64,000 nucleotides of DNA, taken from the NCBI GenBank assembly GCA_004017535.1, contig SAJS01000018.1, positions 1 through 64,000 on the forward strand, in the 5' to 3' direction. The translations under genes were made by a program, and so were the position numbers. Below, one piece after another: positions 3,503-62,518 of this stretch (the stretch's first letter is position 1; each line of letters begins with the position of its first letter). The DNA is from Mesorhizobium sp. GTDB taxonomy: Bacteria > Pseudomonadota > Alphaproteobacteria > Rhizobiales > Rhizobiaceae. The notes below the pieces were generated by a model. That model was not told the DNA's origin and ran no database searches. It was given only the letters and a program-made list of their open reading frames with translations.

Positions 3503-3721
3503 GTGCGCGCTCGTGTGAACATTCTGAATTTCGGGACTGAAAGCGCTGATCCCGACGTCCGGGATCCAAATCGCATTTCGACAAGTGATCCAGAGCAGCT
3601 CGCCTATTTCTCCGCTGTGAACGGCATCACAGAGCAACAGGCCCGAGAGTTGATCCGAAAACATGGAGACAATCTTGCCGTGCTCGTCAAGGAAGCTCGG
3701 AAGCTGCGCGAGCTCGAGTGA
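3503..3721 (+). CDS. DUF3606-like small protein
   Basis: 72 residues starting at GTG, chosen because GAGG lies six bases upstream. The pattern RDPNRISTSDPEQLAYFSA followed by GITEQQARELIRKHGDNLA matches the DUF3606 layout (a D-x-x-R-I-N/S motif, then a small helical unit). Such proteins are common and numerous in rhizobia, and many belong to the general stress regulon, though their biochemical role is unknown. The upstream GGAAC-type site at 3336 fits that. It is a stand-alone gene. Confidence 0.7.
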   Translation: MRARVNILNFGTESADPDVRDPNRISTSDPEQLAYFSAVNGITEQQARELIRKHGDNLAVLVKEARKLRELE

Positions 3722-54714: not shown

Positions 54715-55156
54715 AGGAGCCCTCAAATCGCGTATGTGGCCAGGTTTCGTACGGGCCTGGGTGCCGTCAGAAACCAGCACGCGGCCAGGTTGGTTCCGTA
54801 GCGTGGAAATAACGCATTGTGAAGCGTCTGGCTCCACGTGACCGACCTTCGGCTGACAGCAGTCAAACTCGGCATTGTGTGACGACAAATAATCGCTCGA
54901 TTTCAACGCGTGACGGCACGATGCGGATGTAACTTCCGATATAACGAATGACTAACCATGCGCCGGACAGGGCGTTCGCCATATTAGCTGTTCTTGGTAG
55001 AGCTTTCGGCAAGACCCTGATAGAATTCTAGCCATAACAGGGTGGCAACGGCGCGCCGGGCCTGCCGGGATATCCATCGGCAGACGGCGACGCGTTTCTT
55101 TTGAGCGCAGGTCGGTCGCCCGTTCTGGACTGGAAGCGGGGACTGGGGGCTCGATC
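54715..55156. other. Divergent intergenic region before the cyclase gene
   Basis: About 440 bases with the promoters of the PepSY-like gene and the adenylate cyclase gene. It is AT-richer around 54880-55010. I see no ORF, RNA gene or clear CRP-type palindrome. Confidence 0.4.
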
Positions 55157-56938
55157 ATGGCTGAACGGAATTACACCCGTCAGCTTGCGACAATCATTTC
55201 GATCGACGCCGTAGGATTCTCGAGGCTGATGGGCATCGACGACGAGCTCGCCGTTGCCGCGTTCGAGGAGAGGCGCGACATCATCGCCGGCAGCTGCGGC
55301 GCATTTGGCGGGCGCACATTCGGCGATGCCGGCGACAGCATCATGGCCGAATTCGGCAATCCGATCGAAGCCTTGCTGGCGGCCTTCGATTTCCAGGCGC
55401 GGATCGCAGCGCTGAATGCCGCGGTTGCCGAGAACATGCGCATGCCGTTTCGCGCCGGAATCAATACCGGCGATGTGATTGTCCGCGAGGGTCGTCTCTA
55501 CGGCGACGACGTGAACATCGCCGCCCGGCTTCAGGAATTCGCGCCCCACGACGGCGTCGCCATCTCGGCGACGACCTGGCATCACGTGAAGGACAAGACA
55601 GCAGCAGTCTTTACCGATCTCGGCGAGTTCAGCCTGAAAAACATTGCCTTGCCGGTGCGGGTCCTGATCGCGGGCCGCGGCGGCAACGGGCCTGCCACGC
55701 CGGCCTCCTTCGCTTCTATCCCGGCCGCGCCCGGCCATTACAAACCCGTCCCCAAGGGGCCACCGGCAATCGCGGTGCTGCCGTTCCAGGGCAATGGGAG
55801 CGAACCGAACGTTGGCTATATGGCCGACGGTATCGCCGAGGACATCATCTACGGTCTTTCCAACACGCGCTGGCTTTCGGTCATCGCCAAGGGATCCAGC
55901 TTCCAGTTTCGCGACGATAGCCTGGGCACAAGGCTCATCGGCAATGCGCTTGGCGCGCGCTACATCGTCAGCGGCACGCTGGCGCGCCACGACAGGCATA
56001 TCCGTCTCAACGCATCGCTCACAGACACTTCGAACGGGCGCCTGGTCTGGTCGCAACGCTTCGACCGCGACCTTGTCGACATCTTCAGCCTGCGCGACCA
56101 GATCGGCAGTGAGATCGTTTCCATCCTCGACAAGGAGGTCGATCGCGCCGAGCAGGCGCGCACCTTCCAGGTGCCGTGGGAGAGCCTCGAAACGTGGCAA
56201 CTGGTCAGGCGCGGCCGCTGGCACATGAACAGGCGCACACGCCGCGACACCGACATCGCGCTCGACTTCTTCGACAGAGCCTATCGGGACGATCCGAACT
56301 CGAGCGCCGTGCTCAACGAGCTGGCCTGGTGGTATTTCTGGCGGGCGTGGCTGCGTTTCGGCGACAGCGACGACCTGGAAAAAGTAGAGGAGCTTGCGCG
56401 CAAGGCGCTGCTGATGGACAGCCTCGACGCGCGCCCGCATGCCTATCTCGGCGCGGCCGACATCATGCGCGGCCTGCCGGCATTGGCGGCCGAGCACCTT
56501 GCCGAGGCGATCCACATCAATCCGAGCTTTGCCTTCGCCCGCTCGGCCATGGGCAGCGCGCGCCTTTTGCTTGGCGACGCGGCCGGCGCGATCCCGTTCT
56601 TCCTCGATACCGAGCGGTTGAGCCCGTTCGACCTCTATCGCTTCCATAATCTGGGCGAACTGGCCGCCGCCTATTGCTTCGTCGAGGACTGGCCGGCCGC
56701 GATCGCCACAGCCGAGCGCTCGCTCAACTTGTCGCCAAGTTACTTCTACGCCAGGTTCCTGAAGATAGGCGCCCTGATCAGAAGCGGCAGGCATGACGAG
56801 GCAGAGCGCGAGCTTGCGATTTTTTTGACCCGGCATCCTGACTTTTCCGAGCAGAGGATACGCTGGATACCGTTCGTTGACCCGGCCAAGAACAATTTCC
56901 TGATCGCTAATTTCGATCGGGCCAAGTCAGCCGCATGA
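55157..56938 (+). CDS. Class III adenylate cyclase with TolB-like and TPR regions
   Basis: 593 residues. The N-terminal cyclase domain (about 1-170) has ATIISIDAVGFSRLMGID with the metal Asp17 and FGDAGDSIMAEF with the second Asp at 60. FRAGINTGDVIVREGRLYGD follows, then DVNIAARLQEFA with the transition-state Asn/Arg. Residues about 195-320 form the TolB-like domain common in rhizobial cyclases (PAIAVLPFQGNGSEPNVGYM, LGARYIVSGTLARHDRHIRL). The last 250 residues are TPR-like helices. It makes cAMP in the cytoplasm, and a Crp-type regulator is encoded 5 kb away. The giant haem protein follows 117 bases downstream. Confidence 0.92.
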   Translation: MAERNYTRQLATIISIDAVGFSRLMGIDDELAVAAFEERRDIIAGSCGAFGGRTFGDAGDSIMAEFGNPIEALLAAFDFQARIAALNAAVAENMRMPFRAGINTGDVIVREGRLYGDDVNIAARLQEFAPHDGVAISATTWHHVKDKTAAVFTDLGEFSLKNIALPVRVLIAGRGGNGPATPASFASIPAAPGHYKPVPKGPPAIAVLPFQGNGSEPNVGYMADGIAEDIIYGLSNTRWLSVIAKGSSFQFRDDSLGTRLIGNALGARYIVSGTLARHDRHIRLNASLTDTSNGRLVWSQRFDRDLVDIFSLRDQIGSEIVSILDKEVDRAEQARTFQVPWESLETWQLVRRGRWHMNRRTRRDTDIALDFFDRAYRDDPNSSAVLNELAWWYFWRAWLRFGDSDDLEKVEELARKALLMDSLDARPHAYLGAADIMRGLPALAAEHLAEAIHINPSFAFARSAMGSARLLLGDAAGAIPFFLDTERLSPFDLYRFHNLGELAAAYCFVEDWPAAIATAERSLNLSPSYFYARFLKIGALIRSGRHDEAERELAIFLTRHPDFSEQRIRWIPFVDPAKNNFLIANFDRAKSAA

Positions 56939-57055
56939 TTGCCGGGCCGACAACAGATGACTGTGAGCGAATTCACATACGCCGGACCGATGCAAACCTA
57001 GGCCAGACTGTGCCGGCACCGCATTGACGTGGACAGCCGGGGGGCTTGAACGCGC

Positions 57056-60000
57056 ATGATCACACTGAAGTACTTCGCCGCTGTCCGGGCCGCCCAGAAG
57101 TGCCAGCGCCCCGTTGCCGAAATGCCGCCGTTCGACATCTATCGGCTGCGTTCCAAGGGCGGCATTGCCTCGCGCATCGCCGGCTTTCTTCTCGGCGATC
57201 CGCGCTGGCTGCTGGCGCTGCTGCGCCGCTTCTGGCCAAATCTCGGCTTTGGCAATTTCCTGCTCGTCACCAAGGGCGCGGATGTGCGCGACATATTGGA
57301 GCGCGGCGACGAGTTCGAGACGCCTTACGGGCCGGAAATGGCCGAGCTGGCGAGGGGCTCGAATTTCATTCTCGGCATGCAGGACGGCGCCGCATACCGG
57401 CAGATGAAATCAGCCGTGTTGAGCGCGTTCCCGCCGGCGGAGGTCGAAGCCACCGTCAGGCCGATCGCCGAGCGCCATTCGCGCGAGATCATGACCCGCG
57501 CCAGCCCCGGCTTCGATTCCATTGCAGGCTTGATGAAGGTTGTGCCGGTGCGCATCTGCCGCGACTATTTCGGCCTTCAGATCGACGATGAGACAGAATT
57601 CGCCGACTGGTCGATCGCGCTCAGCGCGCTGTTCTTTTCCGATCCGACGGCAAATCCCACCACGCGCCAGCTTGCCGTGGTCGGGGGAGATCGCCTGATC
57701 AAAATTATCGACCGCTCGATCGCCGCGGTCCGGGAAAAGGCGGGCAAGGATGACAGGCCGCTGGCCCGCTTGGTCGCGCTGATGGACCAGGGACGCCTGT
57801 CGCTGCCCGACATTCATTCCATCATGCTCGGCATGGTCGCCGGCTTCGTGCCGACCAATGTGCTCGCCGGCAGCAATTGCCTGGATGTGATCCTGTCGCG
57901 AACCGATGCACGGCAGGCCGTGGATGAGGCCCTCGGCGCCGGCGACACCGGCAAGCTCGACCGGGCGATCATGGAAGCCATGCGCTTCAAGCCGATCTGG
58001 ATCGGACCCTGGCGCTACACCAGGCGTGACGCGGTCATCGGCAAGGGCACCCGTCGCGAGCGCCTGGTCAAAGCCGGAACGGTCGTCATGCCGGCGACGC
58101 TTTCGGCGATGTTCGATCCGGAGATCGTGCAGCGGCCGAACCAGTTCGATACGTCGCGCCCGCATCGCGACTACATGGTTTTCGGTTACGGCATCCATTT
58201 GTGCATCGGCGCGGAAATCGCCCGCATTCAGATCGGTGAATGCATCCGCGCCCTGTTCAGCAAGCCGAAGCTGACCCGGGCGCGGGGCAGGGCCGGCAAG
58301 ATGGTCAATGTCGGCGCCTACCCGGCAAGCCTGAAGGTCGATTTCGAGCGCTCGCCGCTTTGCCGCACCGCCGAGCAGTCGATGGTGACCGTGGTCTGCC
58401 CGATCACCCGACCGATCCCGCTCGATACGGTGCGCGACAAGGTCGCGGATCTCGGCAATCCGGCGATCGGCGAAATCAGCGCCGCGCTCGACAAGGTCGG
58501 CACCATCCATTTCACCAGCCTGGCCGTCGCTCCCACCGGCAAAGACGAAAAATCGGGGACCGAGACCGGCGCGCTGGTGTTGGAAATCTCCGGCGACGGC
58601 AGCACCGACGATGTCATTGCCGCCATAGCGCACGCGATCGGTAACCGGCTGCGGCCGATCTTCAGGGATGTCTGCGGCCTCCCGGATGGCGGTTCGCTGG
58701 AAGAGTTCTTGAAGAGGAAGCACATCGAGATATCGCCGTCTTTCGGCAGCGCCGCCGGGCTGGTTTTCTCCGGCACGCCGGGACATTCCGTGCGGCGGAT
58801 CCTGGCCGAGGCCAAGCTCGCTGACAGCGTGCGTGAGATCGTCGAAAAGCCGCGCGCGGGCGCCGGCAATGCGATGGATGTGCTTGCCGAGGCGCGCCAC
58901 CATGTCCGGTGCCTCGGGCAATTCGGCTGGGCATTCGAGCCCGCCGAAAGCCTGCTGGAAAGACCGCCCGGCCACTGGTCGCGGGCGCTGACGACGACGC
59001 TGCTGACGCCGGCGATGTTCGCCACCGTCGCGATCGTCATTCTGGCCTTCTGGCGCATGACTTATGTGCTCGTGTTCGGAAACCCGCATGGGATCACCTT
59101 CACCAACATCGCGATTGCGGGCACCTCGCTTCTGCTTTCAGTCCTCGGTCTGCTGGCCATTCTCGCCCTGTTCGTCGGGCTTTGCTTCCTGGCGTTGCGG
59201 CGGCTGGAGGACAAGGACCAGCCGGCGAGTACCCCTGTCGAGATCGGCGCGCTCGAAAAGATCCTCGCCCATGAGGACCACACCGCGCAGAACAATCTGA
59301 CGGCGATCTCGACGATGAAGGCGGGCATCTTGCGGCGGCTGGCGCTGCGGCTCTCCTTCTATCTGATCTCGATATCGGCGCAGAAGGTGTTCAGGCCAGG
59401 CTTCCTCGCCACCATCAACACCATTCATTTCGCCCGCTGGGTGCTGTTGCCCGGCACCAACAGGCTGATGTTCTTCTCCAATTACGGAGGCAGTTGGGAA
59501 AGCTATCTCGAGGACTTTATCGCCAAGGCCTCGGCCGGCCTGACCGGTGTGTGGAGCAACACCGACGGCTATCCGCGCACGCGCTGGCTGTTCCTGGATG
59601 GCGCGCGCGACGGCGATCGCTTCAAGCGCTGGGCGCGGCGCCAGCAGGTGCCGACGCTGTTCTGGTACACCGCCTATCCGCACCTCAACACCACGCGTAT
59701 CCGCATCAACTCCAGGATCAGGCGCGGCATCGCCTCGGCTACCGGCAATGAGGCGCGCGACTGGCTGAGCCTTTTCGGTTCGCTGGCGCGTCCGCAAGCG
59801 CGGCCGGCGGATGCGGGGAGCCTGCCGGAGCCCCCGTCCTCGCCCCTCGAAGAGCTGGAATCCGGCGAAATCCAGTCGATCTTCTTCGGGCCGTTCGGCG
59901 CGCTGGGCGACGCGCATATGCTTGGGATCAAGGTGCCGGACGGTCTGCCGGCGGCGAAGCGCAAGGCGTGGCTCGATTTCGTCATCGGCAAAACCAGCTT

Positions 60001-61282
60001 CGGCGACGGGTTGCCCGCGGGCCGCGCCATGACGGTGGCGTTCGGCCCCAACGGACTGCGCCGGCTTGGGCTCGAAGGCGGCGTCGACGACGAACCGCTG
60101 GACACGTTCCCGGTCGCCTTCCGGGAAGGCATGGGCACGCCCGAGCGCAGCCGCATCCTCAACGACACCGGCCCTGACGCGCCCGACAAGTGGCAGTGGG
60201 GGTCTTCCGCCAAGCCCGTCGATGTCGTCATCGTCTGCTATGCCGAGACGCCGGCCCTGCTGAAGGCCGAGATCACGGCCATGAAGCGACAGACGGCAGG
60301 CGCCGGGATGTCGGTGACCGCCGAACTGCCGCTGAAGGTGAAGCGCGAAGGCAAGCGGGCGGTCGAGCATTTCGGCTTCGTCGACGGCATCTCGCAACCG
60401 ATCGTTCGGGGTACGGCGCGCGCCGCCAAGGGAGCCGCGCCCATGCATCTGCTAGCGCCGGGCGAGTTCCTGTTCGGTTATCGCGACGAGCATGGCTTCT
60501 ACCCGTCTTCGCCCTCGGTCGAGGCGGCGCTGGATCGCGCCGGCATCCTGTCGCAGGTGCGGCGCAACCGCCAGATACCCGGGCAACCGCCTCCGCCGCG
60601 CGATTTCGGCCGCAACGGCACGTTCCTCGTCATGCGCCAGTTCGAGCAGCATGTCGAATTGTTCGACGATTATTGCAGGCGGGCGGCGACGCAGGCCGCA
60701 AATGAGACCGGCGATCCCGCCGTCGATCAACGCTGGGTGGCCGCGAAGATGCTCGGCCGCTGGCAGGACGGCAGCTCGCTCGTGCGCAATCCGAACGGGC
60801 GGCCGGGCCGCGGCGTCGACAATGATTTCGCGCTCGGCGCCGAGGATCCGCAGGGGCACGCCTGTCCACTCGGCTCCCACATACGCCGTTCCAACCCGCG
60901 CGATTCGCTCGGTGAGGACCGCGATACGCAGATCAGGATCGGCAAGCGCCATCGCATCCTGCGCGTCGGCCGCACCTACGAGAAAAAGGACAGAAGCGGG
61001 AAGACAGAGAAGGGACTGCTCTTCATGTGTCTCAACGCCGATATCGAGCGCCAATACGAGTTCATCCAGCAGACCTGGGTCTCGTCGAGCTCGTTCCAGG
61101 GTCTTGTCGGGGAGACGGATCCGACGATCGGGGCAAGGGGCGGCGGCGGCCGGTTCTCGATCCCGTCCTGGGAAAAGGTCACCGTGCTCAAGGATGTGCC
61201 GAAGTTCGTCACCACGAAAGGCGGCGGCTATTTCTTCATGCCGAGCCGCTCGGCGCTGCGCTACATGATCTCGCGGTTGTGA
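57056..61282 (+). CDS. Cytochrome P450 - membrane - DyP-type peroxidase fusion protein
   Basis: 1408 residues in one uninterrupted frame. Residues 1 to about 430 are a cytochrome P450: I-helix GMVAGFVPTNVLAG (Thr267), E-x-x-R at Glu307-Arg310 (MEAMRFKP), a PERF-like PNQFDTSRP, and the haem loop FGYGIHLCIGAE with Cys383. Residues about 440-620 and about 770-870 hold two copies of an alpha/beta domain (TIHFTSLAVAP at 483; TIHFARWVLLPG at 789). Between them are two transmembrane helices (about 649-675 and 681-715). Residues about 920-1408 form a DyP-type peroxidase: HFGFVDGISQP with the distal Asp1110, GRNGTFLVMRQFEQHV, and the proximal His1275 in LGSHIRRSNPRD. It should carry two haems and sit on the inner membrane. 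The substrate is unknown. It follows the cyclase gene in the same direction. Confidence 0.9.
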   Translation: MITLKYFAAVRAAQKCQRPVAEMPPFDIYRLRSKGGIASRIAGFLLGDPRWLLALLRRFWPNLGFGNFLLVTKGADVRDILERGDEFETPYGPEMAELARGSNFILGMQDGAAYRQMKSAVLSAFPPAEVEATVRPIAERHSREIMTRASPGFDSIAGLMKVVPVRICRDYFGLQIDDETEFADWSIALSALFFSDPTANPTTRQLAVVGGDRLIKIIDRSIAAVREKAGKDDRPLARLVALMDQGRLSLPDIHSIMLGMVAGFVPTNVLAGSNCLDVILSRTDARQAVDEALGAGDTGKLDRAIMEAMRFKPIWIGPWRYTRRDAVIGKGTRRERLVKAGTVVMPATLSAMFDPEIVQRPNQFDTSRPHRDYMVFGYGIHLCIGAEIARIQIGECIRALFSKPKLTRARGRAGKMVNVGAYPASLKVDFERSPLCRTAEQSMVTVVCPITRPIPLDTVRDKVADLGNPAIGEISAALDKVGTIHFTSLAVAPTGKDEKSGTETGALVLEISGDGSTDDVIAAIAHAIGNRLRPIFRDVCGLPDGGSLEEFLKRKHIEISPSFGSAAGLVFSGTPGHSVRRILAEAKLADSVREIVEKPRAGAGNAMDVLAEARHHVRCLGQFGWAFEPAESLLERPPGHWSRALTTTLLTPAMFATVAIVILAFWRMTYVLVFGNPHGITFTNIAIAGTSLLLSVLGLLAILALFVGLCFLALRRLEDKDQPASTPVEIGALEKILAHEDHTAQNNLTAISTMKAGILRRLALRLSFYLISISAQKVFRPGFLATINTIHFARWVLLPGTNRLMFFSNYGGSWESYLEDFIAKASAGLTGVWSNTDGYPRTRWLFLDGARDGDRFKRWARRQQVPTLFWYTAYPHLNTTRIRINSRIRRGIASATGNEARDWLSLFGSLARPQARPADAGSLPEPPSSPLEELESGEIQSIFFGPFGALGDAHMLGIKVPDGLPAAKRKAWLDFVIGKTSFGDGLPAGRAMTVAFGPNGLRRLGLEGGVDDEPLDTFPVAFREGMGTPERSRILNDTGPDAPDKWQWGSSAKPVDVVIVCYAETPALLKAEITAMKRQTAGAGMSVTAELPLKVKREGKRAVEHFGFVDGISQPIVRGTARAAKGAAPMHLLAPGEFLFGYRDEHGFYPSSPSVEAALDRAGILSQVRRNRQIPGQPPPPRDFGRNGTFLVMRQFEQHVELFDDYCRRAATQAANETGDPAVDQRWVAAKMLGRWQDGSSLVRNPNGRPGRGVDNDFALGAEDPQGHACPLGSHIRRSNPRDSLGEDRDTQIRIGKRHRILRVGRTYEKKDRSGKTEKGLLFMCLNADIERQYEFIQQTWVSSSSFQGLVGETDPTIGARGGGGRFSIPSWEKVTVLKDVPKFVTTKGGGYFFMPSRSALRYMISRL

Positions 61283-61331: not shown

Positions 61332-62015
61332 TCAGTCGTCGTCCTGCGATTCGGCGATGTGGGTCAGCGCCGCGGCGTTGATGATGCGCAGGCCGCCGCG
61401 CTTGATGGCGATCATCTGCCGGTTGCGCCAGTCGTTGAGCGTCTTGTTGACGGATTCGCGCGTCGCGCCGAGGAATTCGCCTAGCTCGGATTGCGAAATC
61501 GGAATCCAACCGGCGGAGTCGGCCATGACCCCGCTCAGGAACACCAGCCGCTTCGCCAGCCGGGCCTCGATGCCGAAAAAGGCCTGGTCGCCCAACTCGC
61601 CGCTGACCCAGCGCAGCCGCGTGCACAGCAATTCGATCATCGCTCGCGCGAGAGACGGGTTTTTCTCAATGCGGTCAAAGAGTTGTGTCCGGCTCAGCGA
61701 AACCAGCTCGCAGGCCGTGAGACAGCTCGCGGTGGCCGTGCGCGGGCGTCCGTCCAGTGCCCCGATCTCGCCGACAAGGCTGCGCGACAGCTCGATATTG
61801 GCCACCAGCTTCTGCCCGCCCGGCGAGTAGATCGAGATCTCGACCGTGCCGCTCATCACACCATAGATGCGGTCGGACGCATCCTCCTGGACGAACAAAT
61901 GCTGGCCGGCGGCGTAGCGCTCCAGCTTGCAGCCGCCGAACAACAGGTCGAACTGGCGCGGATCGATGCGCGCCAGGCGCGGCAGGTTGCTGTCGTCCGC
62001 CCCATTTGTAGCCAT
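61332..62015 (-). CDS. Crp/Fnr-family regulator, cAMP-type
   Basis: 227 residues from ATG 62015 (the frame continues 59 codons upstream with poor coding character). The cyclic-nucleotide-binding barrel has IYGVMSGTVEISIYSPGGQK and SLVGEIGALDGRPRTATASC, where the Gly-Glu and Arg-Thr-Ala positions match the cAMP-contacting cassette. The DNA-binding part has ISQSELGEFLGATRESVNKT. It is convergent with the P450-DyP gene. Together with the cyclase gene it suggests a local cAMP circuit, though this is inferred from proximity only. Confidence 0.88.
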   Translation of the reverse strand: MATNGADDSNLPRLARIDPRQFDLLFGGCKLERYAAGQHLFVQEDASDRIYGVMSGTVEISIYSPGGQKLVANIELSRSLVGEIGALDGRPRTATASCLTACELVSLSRTQLFDRIEKNPSLARAMIELLCTRLRWVSGELGDQAFFGIEARLAKRLVFLSGVMADSAGWIPISQSELGEFLGATRESVNKTLNDWRNRQMIAIKRGGLRIINAAALTHIAESQDDD

Positions 62016-62518
62016 GATACGATTCCGCCTCTGGTTAGACGGAAATTGTAGGACAAGTGCATGCTCGATCAAAGCGTCGTCTCCTTCTACGGGGGCTCTC
62101 CGAAATCGGCGGGTGGCTGACAGAAGTTTCAATGTCATGCCCGAGACGTCGAAACCGGATAAGCCGGCAAACTGTAAGGAGACCGGGCGCACTGGCGGTT
62201 ACGTACCGATCCTTCGAGAACGCCGTCCGCGCGCTTGGGTGGGAGGTACCCAGCGCGCAGGCAGCAAATCTGAAAATGGCTAGGTGATCAAAATCCCTTC
62301 CTGCGGAACCGCATCCAGTTCGGAGGCCGTCTTCGAACCTTGCAAGTCGGTCAGGTCCTTGGTGCCGCCGTTGCCTTATCTGCGTGCAAAGCCTGCCGGA
62401 CGTATGTGAAGGCGGTCACAGATCGCCACTGGGCCGATTGCGAAAAATCGAAAACCGCTCTATGGAGCGATCGGCCGAATTGAGGGCGGCCTGTCAACAC
62501 ATTGCACAAGGTCGCCCC
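62016..62518. other. Intergenic region without supported genes
   Basis: About 500 bases upstream of the Crp-type gene on one side and of a small membrane protein on the other. Short frames exist (for example one of about 48 codons from 62138), but none has a clear SD or recognisable product. No hairpin or repeat stands out. Confidence 0.4.

Follow-up and report, generated by a model that had tools for sequence, protein, structure and literature searches.

The 64,000-nucleotide stretch of Mesorhizobium sp. contig SAJS01000018.1 analysed here, referred to as the window, carries one gene for a 1408-residue fusion protein, to which all residue numbers below refer, composed of a cytochrome P450, a middle domain with a membrane hairpin and a dye-decolourising-type peroxidase (DyP). 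Computation shows both haem domains, each modelled with confidence and highly conserved. What is new is the setting of the gene: a cyclase gene lies upstream, a Crp-family gene lies downstream, and a perfect Crp box precedes the fusion. Most likely the whole serves as a regulated oxidation machine, and many related bacteria retain it next to an apparent cyclic AMP (cAMP) switch of its own. The preferred reading, to which a probability of about one half is assigned, is a membrane-bound two-haem oxidoreductase whose P450 uses peroxide or a hydroperoxide and whose expression is switched by cAMP. We infer its topology and regulatory circuit from sequence, models and conserved neighbouring genes; the chemistry proposed for the enzyme is more conjectural. 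A preliminary description of the window had recognised the P450, two membrane helices and the DyP, and had missed the middle domain of about 470 residues as well as the linked cyclase, the Crp gene and the Crp box.

The single open frame claimed in that description has been borne out. Genome contigs were scanned with the middle domain, and the best 80 of 243 confirmed stretches form the locus set (L-numbers are labels of the scanned loci, and the source genome is the one carrying the window). The P450, both halves of the middle domain (MIDa and MIDb) and the DyP stand in a single frame at 70 of these 80 loci. Because the same four-part frame recurs in this way, a sequencing or assembly error joining two genes, named earlier among the findings that would overturn the claim, is ruled out, and the same architecture has been found in other genomes, as had been proposed to look for. 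Annotation conceals the fusion: of three fused records inspected, two bear the name “cytochrome P450” and the third “Dyp-type peroxidase domain-containing protein”. The chain differs from self-sufficient P450s in that no FMN, FAD or FeS reductase domain is matched by Pfam at E up to 1. A fusion of P450 and DyP with a large middle domain unnamed by Pfam is a kind of protein without a description in the literature searched; among the matches listed from the open literature, a scope that leaves most subscription journals outside, there was no bacterial P450-DyP fusion, in agreement with the earlier statement that no characterised bacterial enzyme of this order is known.

All superfamily tests made (profile, cysteine loop with the ExxR motif, fold) identify the N-terminal half as a P450. 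The window protein reaches 40.8 bits with the Pfam p450 profile (cut-off 22.8), and its model gives TM-scores on the target of 0.80 (3zkp) and 0.85 (3eje). Residue counts were made on 101 fused open reading frames (ORFs) with a near-complete P450 part, the window included and some genomes represented twice. Cys383, His381, Arg310, Gly259, Gly263, Pro266 and Thr267 are invariant in all of them, and Glu307 of the ExxR motif is kept in 100.

Fold and haem residues identify the C-terminal half as a DyP, although it falls short of the cut-off for two of three DyP profiles. The Pfam C-terminal profile is exceeded (22.3 against 20), whereas the Pfam N-terminal profile (13.6 against 27.5) and the NCBIfam DyP profile (95.1 against 100.5) are not, so that the profile check suggested earlier gave a clear result for the P450 and a mixed one for the DyP. 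The model has the DyP fold; its nearest solved structure is the DyP of Deinococcus radiodurans (8re2/8re3), a stand-alone enzyme, whereas the DyP described here is the C-terminal third of a membrane protein. Of the available rows, 54 of 77 and 49 of 69 entered the structure alignments, those left out being chiefly near-copies. Asp1110, His1275 and Arg1303, the last of which is, judged by its motif, likely the distal arginine, are invariant in all 54 DyP parts aligned. Conservation of the distal aspartate and arginine and of the proximal histidine is described for DyPs (PMC8230527, in part). Both haem signatures of the preliminary description have thereby been confirmed. One other DyP gene, scoring 177 bits with the DyP C-terminal profile, is located on contig C22 (L133) of the source genome.

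The two haem domains are separated by the two-part middle domain, which encloses the two-helix hairpin. In MIDa of the window protein Pfam recognises no family up to an E of 1, and the PDB offers no credible sequence match; for seven relatives of the middle domain Pfam gave scattered weak matches, the best with E 0.0016 (EI24, in one member). A weak likeness between MIDa and MIDb was detected by hhalign (E 0.0046), which linked neither of them to the DyP halves; its power is low here, since even the two DyP halves were not linked to each other. The matches of fold searches with models spanning the middle domain were taken up by the P450 and the DyP, and 15 matches at E 0.001 or better in a viral fold library, mostly P450 by name, were not used. 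A hairpin returns the chain to the side from which it entered, and inspection by eye shows no export signal, so both haem domains are predicted to be cytoplasmic, on the inner face of the membrane.

The gene upstream of the fusion encodes a regulator with a class III cyclase domain (Pfam Guanylate_cyc, 25.5 bits against a cut-off of 21.9) and TPRs; the stretch between them, matched by no profile, is presumably TolB-like. Its residues D17, D60, N120, R124 and K161, to which catalytic roles are assigned, are kept in 44/44 linked cyclases, the window's included. The product of the converging downstream gene matches Pfam cNMP_binding (60.4 bits) and HTH_Crp_2 (52.1 bits). The box in the 117-bp region between the cyclase gene and the fusion reads TGTGA-N6-TCACA, the E. 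coli-type Crp consensus. The window contains four Crp sites with at most one mismatch, three of them perfect, against 0.74 expected, and four such sites were reached in 1 of 100 shuffles; the third perfect site lies at 3616-3631. No Crp box is present upstream of the cyclase gene in the window. At that position a box occurs in 7/7 loci of Nitratireductor, Chelativorans and M. liriopis and in 2/36 elsewhere (7.8% expected per locus).

A regulator with the same C-terminal part adjoins the fusion upstream in 62 of 64 testable loci; the other two are L128 and L074, in which the fused ORF as drawn extends too far and runs into the regulator. The N-terminal part of this regulator is of two kinds, a cyclase or another. 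The non-cyclase class, labelled SARP-like, is represented by a BTAD domain according to Pfam in L057 (with no cyclase match) and by a SARP annotation in Novosphingobium (L006), and no N-terminal Pfam family was recognised in the regulators of L006, L007, L053, L055, L062 and L063. In the 60 fused loci for which both flanks are available, the cyclase and the converging Crp gene occur together in 42, are both missing from 18 and never occur singly (the Crp genes of six cyclase loci were recovered by direct tblastn), and a box of at least 9/10 precedes the fusion in 41/44 cyclase-class loci (0.10 expected from shuffles) versus 1/23 of the other class, counts that are not independent and overstate the evidence because many loci are close relatives. 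The class labels of the box count are given as printed, with their errors: the “cyclase” of L077 is another, more distant gene, L128 was counted in the other class despite its Crp gene, with no regulator found, and the regulator of L081 is lost at a contig end. The single box of the other class belongs to L128; the cyclase-class loci under 9/10 are L077, L082 (8/10) and L089 (6/10). Within 450 bp upstream of the crp gene a box of at least 9/10 is found in 23/45 loci, a count made with no shuffle control. Locus L082, from another clade, has its own cyclase and a Crp only 21% identical to that of the window; its fusion is preceded by the 8/10 site, its Crp gene by a perfect box.

The source genome holds 15 further matches to the cyclase-TPR protein (26-37% identity), and the linked cyclase is retained beside the fusion across genera. 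Rhizobia can hold many cyclases with one messenger in common, with 28 putative cyclase genes in S. meliloti (PMC10127613, in part). Here one cyclase, Crp, box and enzyme stand at one locus, so that the way in which each of many rhizobial cyclases finds its target is directly testable. The system resembles the cyclase-Clr regulation of Sinorhizobium in the proposed use of cAMP and a Crp-family regulator in rhizobia; it differs in that Clr sites are HGTYHCNNNNGRWACA (PMC10127613, in part), whereas here the site reads TGTGA-N6-TCACA and the Crp gene is a close neighbour. An inverted repeat, CCCTG-N18-CAGGG, is present at 55015-55042 of the window, 114 bp before the cyclase gene, and is a possible operator; a repeat of this kind occurs in 15/43 upstream regions (the window and 14 Mesorhizobium loci). 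At the split loci L034 (3981-7322) and L129 (3869-7258) a different cyclase gene lies upstream, composed of a zinc ribbon, cyclase, AAA ATPase and TPR.

The proposed working of the system may be outlined as follows: (i) the TPR-cyclase would sense a signal and make cAMP (or cGMP); (ii) the neighbouring Crp, loaded with the nucleotide, would occupy the box before the fusion and turn expression on, and where a relative lacks the cyclase, its place would be taken by a regulator that shares the C-terminal part but has another N-terminal domain (BTAD in one scanned case); (iii) the hairpin within the middle domain would hold both haem domains on the inner face of the cytoplasmic membrane; (iv) the DyP half would provide an ordinary peroxide-activated haem site; (v) the P450 half, having given up the acid-assisted activation of O2 known from reductase-fed P450s, would act on a hydrophobic substrate taken from the membrane, using peroxide or an organic hydroperoxide that the DyP half makes or handles.

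One line of support for the proposal on the P450 half is its I helix. In usual P450s an acid-alcohol pair delivers protons to bound O2, and this pair is missing in P450 peroxygenases (PMC10988616, in part). An acidic residue in the I-helix centre (residues 257-272) occurs in 1/101 fused ORFs (L106) versus 30/30 control P450s, which comprise 26 from other genomes of the class, three from the source genome and one from Methylorubrum (L140, L154 and L161 were left out, no ORF being recognised). In the aligned acid column alone, Asp or Glu stands in 29/30 controls; L157 has Val there and an Asp four residues further on, for which it is counted in the first figure and not in the second. Two registers of the fused family have been obtained. 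HMMER alignments to EryK, 8rtv and 4mm0 and profile alignments of L003 and L011 match V265-P266 to the pair, and profile alignments of L112, L115 and L120 together with the MAFFT alignment match P266-T267; judged by alignment, the acid is absent in either register. Its loss favours, without proving, the use of peroxide or hydroperoxide without a reductase. If the P450 is truly reductase-free, it represents a natural design for peroxide-driven oxidation.

The available flanks of the 70 fused loci agree with the earlier remark that no ferredoxin gene adjoins the fusion: none was recognised there by a scan limited to patterns and phmmer, which recovered the ferredoxin of the L011 operon as a positive control. 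Thirteen plant-type ferredoxin pattern matches in these flanks were rejected; all overlap a longer ORF and look like out-of-frame translation. Reductase-like matches lie 4-5 kb downstream of the fusion in some loci and are, judged by gene order, probably glutathione reductase.

Several results weigh against a peroxide-using P450 under cAMP control. EryK, the second-best PDB sequence match and a hydroxylase by name, is also acid-less (I-helix AGHITT), for which reason acid loss is no proof of peroxide use. The split P450s of L112, L115 and L120, situated beside MID-DyP genes, retain D-T-T, so the partnership of P450 and MID-DyP is possible without loss of the acid. In a search of the source genome with two Pfam families, 13 places match Fer2 above cut-off, one of them in a 122-codon frame on contig C12, and one Fer4_13 match lies beside another P450 gene on contig C13; any of these ferredoxins could supply the fusion P450. 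No CYP152 peroxygenase appears by name in the best 50 of 1482 fold matches of the model of residues 1-912. Known DyPs are peroxidases, and none is known to make hydroperoxides. On the regulatory side, besides the relatedness of the loci counted, the association of cyclase and Crp comes down to two changes in the phylogeny, which is not enough to test for significance. Most of these points on the P450 speak for its main rival, an ordinary P450 driven by O2 and NAD(P)H through a ferredoxin encoded at another place in the genome, with the DyP serving only to destroy leaked H2O2, to which a row of genes in Methylorubrum populi adds further support (plasmid locus L011, 4818-10791: ferredoxin, reductase, P450 with AGHETT, catalase-family gene, MIDb-like gene, DyP). 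With the acid missing from 100/101 fused ORFs, Pro fixed in 101/101 and no ferredoxin gene recognised near the fused genes, this rival is regarded as possible, though somewhat unlikely. The earlier idea of a peroxide-driven P450 without a reductase gains support from the acid counts and from the flanks; EryK and the other ferredoxins of the genome keep it short of proof.

Among P450s split from or lacking MID-DyP, Pro-Thr is found in L034, L129, L045, L038 and L041 and PPQP in L010, and L050, a P450 relative with no MID or DyP in its locus, retains E-T-T. L045 (8768-10453) encodes a second P450 of this type in a Mesorhizobium genome, with SSFAPTN in its I helix, at a locus where neither MID nor DyP was found. 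CYP152 peroxygenases (OleT, P450BSbeta) resemble the fusion P450 in lacking the acid-alcohol pair. They have a Pro after their I-helix Arg. This Arg corresponds to Arg245 of OleT (PMC10988616, in part), whereas in the fused ORFs Arg is found at residues 262-268 in 0/101 and the Pro is present; CYP152 enzymes are moreover single-domain proteins and the fusion is multi-domain.

The parallel with fungal oxylipin enzymes drawn in the preliminary description stands as an analogy only. Like the fusion, PpoA and the linoleate diol synthases unite a haem peroxidase and a P450 in one chain; their peroxidase belongs to the cyclooxygenase superfamily and is N-terminal (PMC4420034, in part), whereas the bacterial protein has a C-terminal DyP and a membrane middle domain, which places it outside the fungal class. 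The fusion may perhaps work like these enzymes, yet it is no member of them. DyP-PFL fusions likewise join a DyP to another enzyme, in their case a glycyl-radical enzyme domain, with the DyP N-terminal (PMC5041501, in part). A tandem pathway has been considered, in which the DyP would oxygenate a lipid and the P450 rearrange the hydroperoxide, as in PpoA or linoleate diol synthase. The same logic of a peroxidase and a P450 in one chain (PMC4420034, PMC5041501, both in part), the Pro in place of the usual I-helix pair with the acid missing, and the membrane hairpin are consistent with it. On the other hand, the DyP has no relationship to the cyclooxygenase-type peroxidase of the fungi, and the two halves stand in the opposite order. 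Since no gene family other than the regulators has been found to recur widely beside the fusion, a lipid is not indicated. No DyP lipid dioxygenase is known, and the tandem pathway is judged decidedly unlikely. The more specific picture of a cAMP-gated membrane tandem haem enzyme, in which DyP and acid-less P450 would pass peroxide or hydroperoxide between them towards a dedicated lipid or signal molecule, an independent bacterial counterpart of the fungal psi-factor synthases with a private cyclase-Crp switch, is speculative and on the whole unlikely. Least probable is a protective enzyme whose two haems would do no more than clear organic hydroperoxides at the membrane, forming no particular product: the conserved DyP haem site would suit it, but the conserved P450 would be left unexplained, and peroxide-stress genes are usually not under cAMP/Crp control, which makes the apparent control seen here unusual for such a gene.

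Coordinates of the fusion gene, its parts and the linked regulatory elements in the window
Feature	Position	Strand	Remarks
Upstream regulator gene, 593 aa: class III adenylate/guanylate cyclase domain, middle stretch, TPR repeats	55157..56938	+	Pfam
Perfect Crp box TGTGA-N6-TCACA, between cyclase gene and fusion	56962..56977	+	
Fusion gene, 1408 aa, P450-MIDa-membrane hairpin-MIDb-DyP	57056..61282	+	one open frame
Cytochrome P450 domain, residues 1-440	57056..58375	+	
I-helix Pro266-Thr267, at or beside the acid-alcohol position (register uncertain)	57851..57856	+	101/101 fused ORFs
P450 haem-ligand Cys383	58202..58204	+	101/101 fused ORFs
MIDa, first half of middle domain, about residues 441-638	58376..58969	+	predicted alpha+beta fold (model)
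Membrane hairpin, two helices, about residues 651-720	59006..59215	+	
MIDb, second half of middle domain, about residues 735-912	59258..59791	+	conserved stretch GSWESYLEDF
DyP-type peroxidase domain, residues 925-1408	59828..61279	+	
DyP distal Asp1110 (GxxDG)	60383..60385	+	54/54
DyP proximal His1275	60878..60880	+	54/54
Arg1303, likely DyP distal arginine	60962..60964	+	54/54
Crp/Fnr-family regulator, converging on fusion	61332..62192	-	start may in fact lie near 62015
Second perfect Crp box, upstream of crp gene	62405..62420	+	

Fused relatives have been identified by tblastn of a plasmid collection in Pararhizobium (51% identity), Novosphingobium (33%) and Sulfitobacter (about 30%). Among 146 Mesorhizobium genomes, the source included, a DNA probe of the middle domain matches strongly in 74 and only weakly (at most 45.5 bits) in 6. 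The middle-domain profile is rarer outside the genus, with 10/385 genomes of the class and 26/398 of the phylum (source included, several matches weak or partial). If the parts work together, the pieces are expected as adjoining separate genes, and such loci are known: P450 followed by MID-DyP in L034, L112, L115, L120 and L129, the order MID, DyP, P450 in L010, and MIDb, a further gene, DyP, P450 in L041. Some Rhizobium, Bosea and Roseibium loci have MID-DyP with no P450 detected in the available flanks. In a tree of MIDb and DyP (73 rows, quick method, 13 near-identical Mesorhizobium loci left out), the fused and split states require four changes, and the Rhizobiales fused clade (support 100) stands beside a group of nine split rows; the rows L071, L073, L084 and L126, labelled split, are in fact broken or cut by contig ends.

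Two further arrangements have been observed among the relatives. In L039, L042, L047, L048 and L049 a stand-alone MIDb-like gene (weak profile matches) directly precedes a DyP gene, with a DUF4331-type gene nearby (recognised by Pfam in L049 only and by look-alike sequence in the others). The Rhizobium/Sinorhizobium plasmids L008, L009 and L012 carry MID-DyP without a P450 and, within about 5 kb, a gene for a DNA/RNA non-specific endonuclease, and two of the three also carry a gene of the endonuclease/exonuclease/phosphatase family.

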